NCBI RefSeq assembly: GCF_018446385.1
Contig: NC_055999.1
Location: 82,413,859-82,477,858, forward strand
Direction of reading: 5' to 3'
DNA length: 64,000 nt
From: Zingiber officinale
Lineage: Eukaryota; Streptophyta; Magnoliopsida; Zingiberales; Zingiberaceae
The translations under genes were made by a program, and so were the position numbers. Shown one piece after another: positions 11,790 through 17,197 of the stretch. Positions within the stretch are counted from its first letter, which is position 1; each line of letters begins with the position of its first letter. The notes under the pieces are model-generated. The model saw only the letters and a program-made list of their open reading frames with translations, had not been told where the DNA came from and did not search any database.

Positions 11790-12010
11790 CACTACAAGAA
11801 AAACCCTCATAGACATCGGTGGAACAACAGTAGTTTTAAGCAAAAACCGATGTCTTTGAGTATTTTACACCGATTTTTCCAAAAACCGGTGTCTATAAGC
11901 GCAGATTTTCGCTCATAGACATCGGTTTTTAAGCCGATGTCTATGAGCGCCTTTTTTTTAATTAATAGACACCGATTTTAACAGCGGTTTTTAAAACCCG
12001 GTGTCTATGA
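11790..12010 (+). repeat. CACTA left inverted end and subterminal repeats
   Basis: After the terminal repeat come several copies, in both orientations, of a motif around 'agacatcggttttt' and its complement 'aaccgatgtct' (e.g. 11810, 11848, 11888, 11916, 11931, 11965, 11992). Such arrays are the expected binding sites for a TnpA-like protein. Confidence 0.85.
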
Positions 12011-12478
12011 TAAAATAAAATAATATAATTTTCCCACCAATACTTAGCCGAAATTTGCAACACTTCACTCTTCCCTCTAAACCTAAACCTATATCGCGCC
12101 GTCCACCGTATACCGTCGCCTCATCTCCCTCTTCCCCTTCCTAGATCGACGCCCCTTCCTCTCCCGATCAGGATCAACACAGGACGTCCTTGCTTCTCCG
12201 TCCAACCACACCACATCTCCTCCAACTCCTCCCTTTGGGTGAGAAGAGGCTACCTGTGTGGCTTGGAGTCGTCGCCGGGTCACTAGAAGTCGCCCTCCTC
12301 CACTCTTTCTCGATCCCATATCTGGTAATCTCGATTCCTCATCTCCTTCTTCTGATTTGATCCCTCCTTGTCGATCCTCGCGTGGCCAGGACTGATCGAA
12401 GCTCCTTTCTCACTGATTTTGCTGCTCGCGGTAGGATTCGGCGCTGCCTCCAGGTGTGTTATCAACTAATCGGTCGAC
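12011..12478 (+). other. Leader-like region before the MADS fragment
   Basis: C/T-rich sequence from about 12060 to 12478 looks like the 5' untranslated leader of a plant gene and probably came in with the MADS exon. ORFs seen on both strands here have no recognisable product. Bases 12011-12060 are AT-rich with nothing identified. Confidence 0.4.
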
Positions 12479-12655
12479 ATGGTGAGGGGGAAGACGCAGA
12501 TGAGGAGGATAGAGAACCTGGCCAGCCGGCAGGTGACCTTTTCCAAGCACCGGAGAGGCCTTCTGAAGAAGGCCTTTGAGCTCTCCATGCTCTGCGATGC
12601 CGAGCACCAAATGTCAAGTATTCCCCAAGTACTCCTTATGGTTATCGATTTGTGA
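12479..12655 (+). pseudogene. MADS-box domain fragment (SOC1/AGL20-like first exon)
   Basis: The ATG at 12479 opens a 58-codon ORF. Residues 1-42 read as a MADS DNA-binding domain ([22 protein letters not shown], then [15 protein letters not shown]), closest to the SOC1/TM3 group as I recall it. Usual FSKRRNGLL is FSKHRRGLL here, so one conserved basic residue is His. After residue 42 the sequence leaves the family, before the VALIVFS beta strand needed for dimerisation, and stops at TGA 12653-12655. It is a captured, truncated exon. It would give a short peptide with the DNA-contact helix only. Confidence 0.9.
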
Positions 12656-12895
12656 ACTGGGTAACAAATGTCAAGTATTTTTTGTCTTTCATATGAAATG
12701 AAAGTACCAGTGCTTCCATACTTGACCAATTTGAGCTTGATCAGGAGTTAAATGCATATTTTTCATTTTTGTTCGAACTTATTGCTGAGAGGGGACCTTC
12801 TGTGGGTTTGAATGTTAACCTTAGCTGATATGATCTGTTTCATGGCCATCTCTTCATTGCCGACTCTGGAAGACTTGGCATTTTGTAAGTATTAG
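12656..12895 (+). other. Unassigned stretch between MADS and hexokinase pieces
   Basis: 240 bases with no recognisable coding similarity. A repeat of 'aacaaatgtcaagtatt' (about 12607 and 12664) is visible. It may be intronic or from another captured locus. Confidence 0.3.
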
Positions 12896-13258
12896 GGGGC
12901 AAGGAAGGGCGTGTTGTGAAGCAAGAGAGTAAGGAGGTATCTATCCCTCAAGAACTGATGATTGGTAGTTTAGATGTAAGTCTAGTAGTGTTTGTTCTGT
13001 TCTTTCTTCCTCTAAGATCATGTTTGGGTTCCAATCTGATTCGACTGCTTGATCTTGTCTTTATTATGTTTACAGGAACTTTTTGATTTCATTGCTTCAG
13101 CTTTAGCACAGTTTGTTGCTTCTGAAGGTGTGGATTTTCACCTTCCTGAAGGAAAGCAGAGAGAACTTGGCTTTACCTTTTCATTTCCAGTCAAGCAAAC
13201 CTCAATTGCTTCCGGCACTCTCATTAAGTGGACAAAGCGCTTCAATATAAAGAGCACG
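12896..13258 (+). pseudogene. Hexokinase gene fragment (two exons)
   Basis: Exon 12896-12975 reads GKEGRVVKQESKEVSIPQEL, matching the plant hexokinase segment before the DELFDFIA motif. It is followed by an intron with GT at 12976 and AG at 13075. Exon 13076-13258 reads [18 protein letters not shown], then [17 protein letters not shown] and [14 protein letters not shown], the conserved hexokinase core that contacts sugar. It ends at a GT donor. The frame is open across both exons. Missing are the N terminus, the catalytic Asp region and the ATP-binding lobe, so no enzyme can result. Confidence 0.9.
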
Positions 13259-14659: not shown

Positions 14660-15540
14660 GTATTCAATTTTTTGCTTAACATTTAAATAGCTTCCGCATC
14701 TTCCATATTTTTTTGTTGGAGTACATTTTTCCTTATATTTAATTAATTAGATAGTTGAAACTAGAAGGGTTTAAAGAAAGCTTATTGGTGTGTTATGGAA
14801 GAGTCTTGACAAAATGAAATTTCTCAAGTTAATGGGATATTTTACCAGCTCACTGTTGACTCAGTTAGTACCCTCAGTAACACCATGTCAACCTCATGCC
14901 AAAGAATTTTGTCCATGGTTCCAATTCCATGTAGAAAATTAAATCATGGGTCATCTCAAAAGGGAATGCGAAGACTATTATAGCTAAGCAAATCATAAGA
15001 GAAGAACATATTTTCTGACTATAATAAAAAAAAATACTAAAACTAATGCTTGTCGTTGCACCATATGCGTGAAGTTTATTATCCTGCTGTTCTTTTATGA
15101 GTGTGTGATCATATTTTCAGTTTGGTATATGAAAAAACTACATGGTTGCATTGCGTATTTTCATATGATTGAATGCATGCCATAAGTTTTTACTTTAAAA
15201 CTGGAATAATAACTTTTTTGCTTACATATGTTTATGGTATTCCCTCTACATTCATTGTTTATGGTTAAGTTATTTTCTCCTCTATTTCCCAATTAGTCTA
15301 TGAATTTTGGTTTTTGTCATTTCTCAGTTTTATGTATGAATTAAGCATGTTTAATTGTGAAAAAAAAAATCCTCTTTTCTTTAGTGTGTTTATGTTATTC
15401 AAGAGCCATGTATATATTGTCTTTATTAGTGATGTGAGGTTATGCAGACAAGAGGAACATGTATTCTTCAATTTTATTTTAGCATGCATTTGGTCGAAAA
15501 GTATTGTGACATTGTTAAATTATTACATAATTTATTGCAG
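14660..15540 (+). other. AT-rich unassigned stretch between nucleoredoxin and MMS21 pieces
   Basis: About 880 bases of low-complexity, intron-like sequence. Short ORFs are present (e.g. 15314-15577) but have no recognisable product and low-complexity composition. Confidence 0.35.
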
Positions 15541-16569
15541 AATGTTCATCATGCTGGTGAGGAGCAAGAAGATATAGTCATAACTAGTACCCAAAATAAC
15601 CTATTAAATATGAAGTGCCCTTTGACAGGAAAGCCTGTTATAGAATTGCAAAATCCTGTCCGCTAGTAAAGTAGTGCTTCACTCTTTACCAAAGTTTTGT
15701 AGTTATGTTTTTATCCAATATAAATTAAAATTCCCTAATTTTTTGTTTGTTAGTAATGAAAGATGAAAACATAACGGTTAAGTGAGATTGTTTCATATGT
15801 ACAAAGCCATTTTTTTCTTTGTGAATGAACAAATATTAAACGGTTCACAATTTAACTAAAAACAACTATTTTAAGTGAACTTCTTTCTTAAAATGCAGAG
15901 CTTGGTTTCCTTGGAAATCATGTTCCTTCTTGAACCATATTCAATTTGGCATGAGTCCTTATTTGATTAGTTGCGAACTATGAATTTGTGTGCTTTGTAG
16001 AATGCAATGTGAGATATGTTAATGTCGTAGACAACATTCCATAGCTTTCTACTTATATTTCATTCTAACAACTCAAAAAAATCTTTTAACAGATTCTGTT
16101 GATTCAATTGTTCATGTTCCTTGAACAATGCTTAATGTATATTTATTTATCAAGTGATGAAGAAGCTTATGACTAGTCTGTTTCACATTTTTTTTTTTGT
16201 TTCCCAAGCAAAAGGTATGTTATTATTATTATTAAAGTCATAAACCATGTTCTTTCTATCTGTTGTTCTTCATTAAGCAAGATGGATTGCAAGCATATTT
16301 ATGAGAAGGAGCCAGTAATCCACTACATAAGCACAAAGAAATCACATTCTCGATGCCCAGTTGCAGGTAAGTGCCCTATCTATTGCAGTTGAACTTTCGT
16401 TGTTGATCTTTTTGCTCATTACAGCTACATCCTATCAGGTTGCCCAAAAATTCTCCAAGTTAGACGGGTTGTATGCGATGCCTTGCTTACAATAGAAATT
16501 GATGAAATGCGTTTGGCATTAGCTACAAACATAAATTCAACAATGGTAGAAGATTTTTACAGAAGTTGA
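15541..16569 (+). pseudogene. MMS21/NSE2-type E3 SUMO ligase gene fragment (SP-RING)
   Basis: Three exons: 15541-15665, about 16283-16366 and 16439-16569. They read NVHHAGEEQEDIVITSTQNN then CPLTGKPVIELQNPVR; MDCKHIYEKEPVIHYI then CPVAG; and CPKILQ then RRVVCDALLTIEIDEMR. Together these give the SP-RING zinc-binding Cys/His set (C..., CKH, CPVAGC) up to a stop at 16567-16569 that is probably the natural C terminus. The last intron (16367-16438) has GT-AG ends. The first exon runs into TAG at its donor site, suggesting a mutated splice site. The N-terminal SMC5-binding part is absent. In plants the full protein sumoylates within the SMC5/6 complex. Confidence 0.87.
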
Positions 16570-16839
16570 CTGAAAATGGCAACACTGCTCCTTGCAACTG
16601 TAAGCTTGATATAATTTTTCAAGGTGATTTAGCCCCTGTCGGTGATTTGTCATCGGCCAATGCGATTTAGGCATCATAGTTAATTATCACTTGATGTTGT
16701 AAGAGGAATATTTGTGTAATTTGTGGATACGGACTTGATGTGTACAATATCTATTATCTTTTTATATTGTAAGAATAATATTATGTATTGGTAACATGGA
16801 TATTTACTTGGTGTGTTTAGATACACCGATGTATAATAA
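16570..16839 (+). other. Unassigned stretch after the MMS21 piece
   Basis: Probable 3' untranslated remnant of the MMS21-like gene, followed by AT-rich sequence leading into subterminal repeats. No coding similarity seen. Confidence 0.3.
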
Positions 16840-17197
16840 TATTAACTAAATTTTGTACTATTAAAATGTTGTATAATATCAGTTTTTCACTATTTCGGAA
16901 ATCGAATCGGCGTCGTTAAACAATATTGATATTATATCAGTTTTCCATCGCTGCCAAAACTGATGTTATTAACATATAATATTACATCGGTTTTACACCG
17001 TTGATGAAACAGTGTCGTTAAGTGATACTACACCGGTTAATAACCGATTCGAACACCGGTGTTGTTAAGTGATACTACACCGATTTTAACCCGATGTCTA
17101 AAATGACAGACCTTTTACATCGCCTTCATAGACATCGGTAGAAAATGTAATAGACACTGGTGGAAAATCGATGTCTATAAGGGTTTTTGTTATAGTG
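16840..17197 (+). repeat. CACTA right subterminal repeats and inverted end
   Basis: Motifs of the type 'caccggttaataaccgattcg', 'cgatgtctataagg' and 'agacatcggt' occur in both orientations, mirroring the left subterminal region. The last bases (GGGTTTTTGTTATAGTG) form the inverted terminal repeat. Confidence 0.85.

Follow-up and report, generated by a model that had tools for sequence, protein, structure and literature searches.

Plant transposons of the CACTA superfamily that carry pieces of host genes have been described before. Tgm-Express1, in the wp allele of soybean, is a non-autonomous CACTA element of 5.7 kb that contains exons and introns of five unrelated genes (PMC1947982), and the Pack-CACTA or Pack-TYPE elements of Arabidopsis, rice and maize are bounded by terminal inverted repeats (TIRs) and contain coding DNA without a transposase gene (PMC8903248, PMC13317346). 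Animal Pack-TIRs, attributed to gap filling or to fork stalling with template switching, show internal breakpoints, microhomology and a short replaced stretch (PMC8277862). How cut-and-paste elements acquire pieces of distant genes is still argued. Here we describe an element in ginger that resembles all of these systems, a CACTA-type element of 5,408 bp at positions 11790-17197 of a 64,000-nt stretch (the window) on contig C14 of the 3.09-Gb Zingiber officinale assembly, in which both haplotypes are taken as included. The reading that we consider quite probable is a non-autonomous Pack-CACTA that gained its cargo stepwise by internal break repair, multiplied in a burst and then decayed as silenced pseudogenes.

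An exactly bounded CACTA element with four gene fragments

Both edges of the element are exact, with TAA followed by CACTACAAGAAAAACCC at 11790 and TTTTTGTTATAGTG followed by TAA at 17197. The element has the features of the CACTA superfamily, namely CACTA ... TAGTG termini with inverted repeats, subterminal CATAGACATCGG repeats on both strands (direct families D1-D4 and inverted pairs) and a 3-bp target-site duplication, which in the window copy is TAA (11787-11789 and 17198-17200). The 5' terminus and its subterminal repeats (CACTACAAGAAAAACCC, with CATAGACATCGG units on both strands) occupy 11790-12029 (+), as indicated by the repeats and by a count of the 30-nt terminus, and the 3' terminus with its repeats (CACTATAACAAAAACCC on the minus strand) occupies 16880-17197 (-). 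The element splits a copia LTR-like (long terminal repeat) sequence on the minus strand (9808-17616, in two parts at 9808-11789 and 17201-17616); the sister LTR of the same retrotransposon lies at 22711-25142, and the copia pol open reading frame (ORF) lies between the two LTRs (17815-20667, -). When the flanks of the element are joined at one TAA, they align without gaps to 24527-24923 of the sister LTR (397 bp, 97% identity). The insertion can be seen in place because the sister LTR retains the empty site with its single TAA, and an earlier note on this DNA, made from its letters alone, was right about the exact ends and the duplication. A scan of 20 ORF stretches, including most of the longest among the 102 of at least 30 amino acids (aa) listed for 11700-17300, gave no transposase domain. 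The absence of a transposase gene, also put forward in the note, is a feature of Pack-TYPE elements, and the results support the note's structural reading, in which a non-autonomous CACTA has taken up parts of genes unrelated to one another.

Four fragments, from a MADS-box, a hexokinase, a nucleoredoxin-type and an MMS21-type SUMO ligase gene, all lie on the plus strand. All four score above their Pfam cut-offs, for which the MMS21 piece needs its exons joined. The Pfam and PDB matches confirm at the level of gene families the note's four families in one orientation. A shared 5' module (12030-12607, +) consists of a leader, whose look suggests a 5' untranslated region, and a truncated MADS-box first exon (PF00319, E 2.1e-15; PDB matches to MEF2 proteins and SEPALLATA 3), with a frame of 58 aa that opens with ATG at 12479 and ends at 12655. 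The same module is also present in a sister class with other cargo. It is followed at about 12608-12891 (+) by an exon-like frame that ends at a GTAAGTA donor-like site and is a possible piece of a fifth donor gene; no Pfam match was obtained for this frame as taken from the sister copy L049, and in 21 of 24 compared copies the segment continues into sequence that is replaced here by the hexokinase block.

The hexokinase block (12892-13634, +; 743 bp) contains exon parts at 12892-12975 and 13076-13258 with introns. Its joined exons match Hexokinase_1 (PF00349, 4.4e-26), and the top PDB matches are rice hexokinase 6 and the Hexokinase-1 entry 4qs7, which we take to be the Arabidopsis enzyme. 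An older spacer (13635-13892, +), common to copies without either block, separates it from the nucleoredoxin-type block of about 845 bp (13893-14737, +), with exons at about 13900-14034 and 14192-14599. This block matches Thioredoxin_8 (PF13905) at 3.2e-14 with one exon and at 7.8e-16 with exons joined. Since its best PDB matches are tryparedoxins, the name nucleoredoxin, which follows the Thioredoxin_8 match and the usual description of plant nucleoredoxins, is tentative. The MMS21/NSE2-type SUMO ligase piece (15541-16569, +) has exons at about 15541-15663, 16282-16366 and 16439-16569 with introns; it matches zf-Nse (PF11789) at 2.3e-11 with exons joined, one exon alone (1.9e-4) staying below the cut-off, and its PDB matches include NSE2 and MMS21. 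Introns are retained in the hexokinase, thioredoxin-like and MMS21 pieces, as the note had claimed for all four fragments, whereas the MADS piece is a truncated first exon. Four donors in 5.4 kb, which the note called a rich case, have a precedent in the five genes in 5.7 kb reported for Tgm-Express1 (PMC1947982).

Cargo variants and donor loci in the ginger genome

The 30-nt terminus, with at most one mismatch, occurs 2,933 times genome-wide (1,486 + 1,447), and its reversed control does not occur at all. A genome search with the whole element gave 91 matching pieces from the best 40 of 6,548 candidates; among the matches listed, full-length matches are found at three loci, the window copy and two others at 96%. 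Perfect 3-bp duplications flank 18 of the 21 copies with both ends read, and the other three are off by one base. Two of the 18, L014 and L019, have common flanks and may represent a single insertion carried by both homologous chromosomes. The hexokinase-bearing form is found at three sites with the duplications TAA, ACC and TGA, and copies with cargo at independent sites are a mark of Pack-TYPE transposition. These results show that a gene-carrying CACTA family has multiplied in ginger. A tree of the 27 of 34 copies with more than 2,500 aligned bases is star-like, with pairwise divergence of 2.5-5.8%, mostly 3-4%, and the three hexokinase copies group together (support 0.91). In four copies or neighbours (L018, L032, L035 and L040b) a 5' end of about 300-400 bp is only 83-86% family-like and adjoins or is joined to 94-97% sequence; these ends represent another terminus subfamily, and the copies are possibly hybrids.

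Block boundaries could be compared across the hexokinase place in 24 of the 34 copies. The hexokinase block is present in three of them, and the other 21, sister copies of the kind that the note proposed to look for, have no counterpart of the block and carry other sequence at the same boundaries. In most of these 21 copies the sequence is about 216 bp long, and in some it is altered by deletion or by a nested insert. The hexokinase donor is located at C22:87638974-87639705 (95%), with an allele at C21:96578033-96578479 (98%); the donor gene extends on both sides, and homology stops within a few bases of the block boundaries. Likewise, homology to the nucleoredoxin-type donor (C12:148523095-148523867; allele C11:135304319-135305093) spans window positions 13893-14737. 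Three copies (L028, L053 and L054) have about 224 bp, contiguous with the flanks, in place of this block, and the first 182 bp are common to L049. At the nucleoredoxin-type junction, matching stops in 16 copies and runs through in 24 (best 40 of 505 candidates). In L030 and L031 the middle of the element is absent, and an eIF5A exon with intron is present instead, interrupting the nucleoredoxin-type exon. The eIF5A donor lies at C6:121962925-121964104 (allele C5:148658067), and the eIF5A block is found in element context at five places, including two on the small contigs C142 and C144. The three donors are unlinked loci and are 92-98% identical to the cargo.

Other cargo accompanies the family elsewhere. 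A pICln fragment (Voldacs, PF03517) stands directly after the MADS piece in L051 (C14:1870300-1872250), and this class occupies at least 19 full-length places (best 40 of 201 candidates). In L054 (C7:125818900-125819900), one of the copies without the nucleoredoxin-type block, element sequence gives way to a fragment of an EXS (PF03124, PHO1-type) gene, a candidate for a further cargo piece. A nested CACTA relative of 5.7 kb with an ATA duplication and a legume-lectin (PF00139) fragment lies inside a sister copy at L040b (L040 and L041 together) 5867-11590.

Host-gene fragments, a defining feature of Pack-CACTA elements, are thus present in the window copy, with donors located for two of the four pieces. 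The note's expectation that donor loci would be found in the same genome therefore holds for the hexokinase (C22/C21) and nucleoredoxin-type (C12/C11) pieces and not for the MADS and MMS21 pieces, whose donors were not distinguishable from element copies among the best 40 of 201 and 2,662 candidates, where element-like matches dominate. The pICln donor likewise could not be separated from element copies (best 40 of 201 candidates). The locus C2:105411250, 98% identical to the MMS21 region, was considered as a donor and rejected, because it proved to be a truncated copy with unrelated DNA on either side. The hexokinase and nucleoredoxin-type donors are separate loci, and where read, neither carries neighbouring element segments. 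The arrangement that the note named as contrary to capture, with the segments adjacent at an unrelated locus, was therefore not found for these two donors.

Order and mechanism of the captures

The eIF5A piece was captured after the nucleoredoxin-type piece, because its block begins inside the nucleoredoxin-type exon. The remaining order is strongly supported. The state without hexokinase is the older one, because L049, which lacks the nucleoredoxin-type block, runs hexokinase-free over the same place. The state without the nucleoredoxin-type block also appears older: the replaced stretch has the same two endpoints as the donor homology, and the reverse order would need a double coincidence. 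Copies without the block are slightly more diverged from L011 (93-97% vs 95-97% identity), although these ranges overlap and come from the best 40 of 505 candidates, and L028 differs by 4.1-5.8% from the remaining copies of the 27-copy set.

These states suggest that the pieces of cargo were acquired singly. An element that already contained the MADS and MMS21 pieces would have suffered an internal break, and repair of the break would have copied from an unlinked gene for some distance and then come back to the element. Part of the element would in this way be swapped for part of a gene, introns included, with both ends left intact. The first such swap would have put the nucleoredoxin-type piece in place of about 224 bp. 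After this swap, and in separate sub-lineages, hexokinase would have replaced about 216 bp (in the window copy and two others), or eIF5A about 1.5 kb. The form carrying the nucleoredoxin-type piece would have spread in a burst of transposition, with transposase from elsewhere moving the unit between the CACTA ends. The copies would then have been silenced and would now be decaying as pseudogene cargo. Break-and-copy repair and methylation are the processes that we infer here.

The junctions bear on this repair. Read base by base, microhomology is 1 and 4 nt at the hexokinase junctions, 4 and 0 nt at the nucleoredoxin-type junctions, and 4 and 2 nt at the eIF5A junctions; for the right eIF5A junction an apparent overlap of 5 nt was rejected once the bases themselves gave 2 nt. 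These values sum to 15 nt, whereas junctions drawn at random from the same sequences average 4.4 (P 0.001 for at least 15), and at least three of six junctions with at least 4 nt of microhomology have P 5e-5. Break repair with template switching is consistent with the preserved ends, the loss of internal sequence, the templated insert and the microhomology. Such repair is close to the gap filling proposed for animal Pack-TIRs (PMC8277862) and to the abortive gap repair of Rubin and Levy (1997, as cited in PMC8978399).

Fusion of neighbours, reported for Arabidopsis, is the mechanism given for Pack-CACTA in PMC13317346 and PMC8903248: two copies inserted near each other around a host gene lose their facing ends, and the outer ends mobilise the whole. 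It would also put a part of the element on either side of the captured piece, as observed. For the ginger captures we regard fusion as unlikely and rank it second, because it would require two separate captures, each with a pair of deletions ending within about 216 or 224 bp of one another. In addition, among the matches listed every element segment is more than 1 Mb away from the hexokinase, nucleoredoxin-type and eIF5A donors, a comparison that covers the best 40 candidates per list and the first 100 of the 2,933 termini to be placed (about one per Mb). The 2026 review that presents fusion also allows that an undiscovered mechanism may exist besides it (PMC13317346).

The last part of the preferred reading, silencing and decay after the stepwise captures, is consistent with the substitutions in the 34 copies, counted in aligned pieces of at least 90% identity and at least 90 bp only. 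In all, 2,445 differences from the majority base were counted, of which 1,610 are C-to-T or G-to-A, and C-to-T decay per site-copy is 7.8% at CG, 7.5% at CHG and 1.9% at CHH. In the reading frames, 125 synonymous changes, 271 nonsynonymous changes and 27 stops were observed vs 135, 288 and 28 expected. By these counts no constraint is detectable on the cargo taken as a whole, which decays as methylated repeats do. At positions 13978, 14447 and 15665 the window copy has frame-breaking or splice-junction changes, all C-to-T or G-to-A relative to the base shared by 19 of 23, 19 of 22 and 27 of 28 of the copies readable at these positions.

Several results weigh against this account of stepwise capture, burst and decay. 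The tree has poor resolution, and the pre-nucleoredoxin copy L028 does not branch outside the other copies in it. The microhomology test was chosen after the data had been seen, one of the six junctions has no microhomology and another has a single base, and at the right hexokinase junction an element base is missing from the donor allele. The loss of about 31% of the element in the eIF5A capture is out of line with the small gaps that accompany the other two captures. Fusion of two neighbouring elements could likewise yield internal replacements. Capture of the MADS and MMS21 pieces is argued by analogy only, because their donors were not resolved. An autonomous partner with these ends did not turn up. 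Finally, the hexokinase frame, present in three copies only, has 5 changes vs 15 expected, with fewer of all kinds.

Possible roles of the cargo and comparison with known systems

The note suggested that the element could yield chimeric RNA or small RNAs against the donor genes. Since the pieces share direction and introns are kept, chimeric RNA of the Tgm-Express1 type would be possible, the leader and MADS first exon driving RNA in which the following cargo is spliced. Six identified pieces (MADS, hexokinase, nucleoredoxin-type, MMS21, eIF5A and pICln) run in one direction, for which the chance is 2 x 0.5^6 = 0.03, a point noted afterwards, and the EXS piece would be a seventh; several splice-like sites are preserved along with the introns, and in soybean the cargo exons of Tgm-Express1 are spliced into transcripts (PMC1947982). 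Against this, the MADS frame stops after 58 aa, the nucleoredoxin-type frame of the window copy contains two in-frame stops, no constraint is apparent over the frames taken together, and the pattern of decay is that of methylated DNA. We therefore consider it doubtful that the element or its family is a source of chimeric transcripts. A stronger form, in which the element serves as a platform for exchanging cargo behind a fixed leader and MADS exon, with always-sense swaps favoured by transcription of the element and each making a new chimeric transcript, seems to us quite improbable. Least probable is that small RNAs arising from the copies act to silence the donor genes. CG and CHG decay at about four times the CHH rate is as expected of silenced repeats, and the donors are 92-98% identical to the cargo. 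As far as substitutions can tell, the CG and CHG decay and the neutral decay of the cargo fit silenced copies and are uninformative on silencing of the donors.

Two further features of the window lie outside the element. An unbroken tnp2-type frame at 59600-63047 (+) (Transpos_assoc, Transposase_21, DUF4218; 798 aa), followed by a DUF4216 frame, is located about 42 kb from the element; it was considered as part of the ginger element and rejected, as no matching CACTA end pair was found from window position 52000 to 76141. Two copies of a repeat block lie at 41473-41990 and 47278-47795, about 5.8 kb apart, with inner copies spaced 26 and 83 nt.

The ginger family is not named in the titles and abstract openings of the literature on the precedents, and the word CACTA is absent from the main text of the ginger assembly paper (PMC8342452). 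The ginger element is a Pack-CACTA, and its interest lies in donor-resolved stepwise captures within one genome. Compared with Tgm-Express1, the genes and the species differ; Tgm-Express1 is reported as an element in one gene with demonstrated chimeric transcripts (PMC1947982), whereas the ginger element belongs to a multi-copy family with cargo variants and three donors, known from sequence. The model reported for Pack-CACTA is fusion of neighbours (PMC13317346, PMC8903248), whereas the before and after forms in ginger point to internal replacement. In animal Pack-TIRs the replaced stretch has a median of 4.6% of the element, compared with about 216 bp of 4.9 kb and 224 bp of 4.4 kb in ginger; animal Pack-TIRs are mostly single copy (PMC8277862), whereas the ginger element is a multi-copy plant CACTA with repeated captures in one lineage, one of which removed about 1.5 kb. 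With pre- and post-capture states and three donors in one genome, the breakpoints are legible almost to the base, and the ginger haplotypes offer a direct test of the two models of capture.

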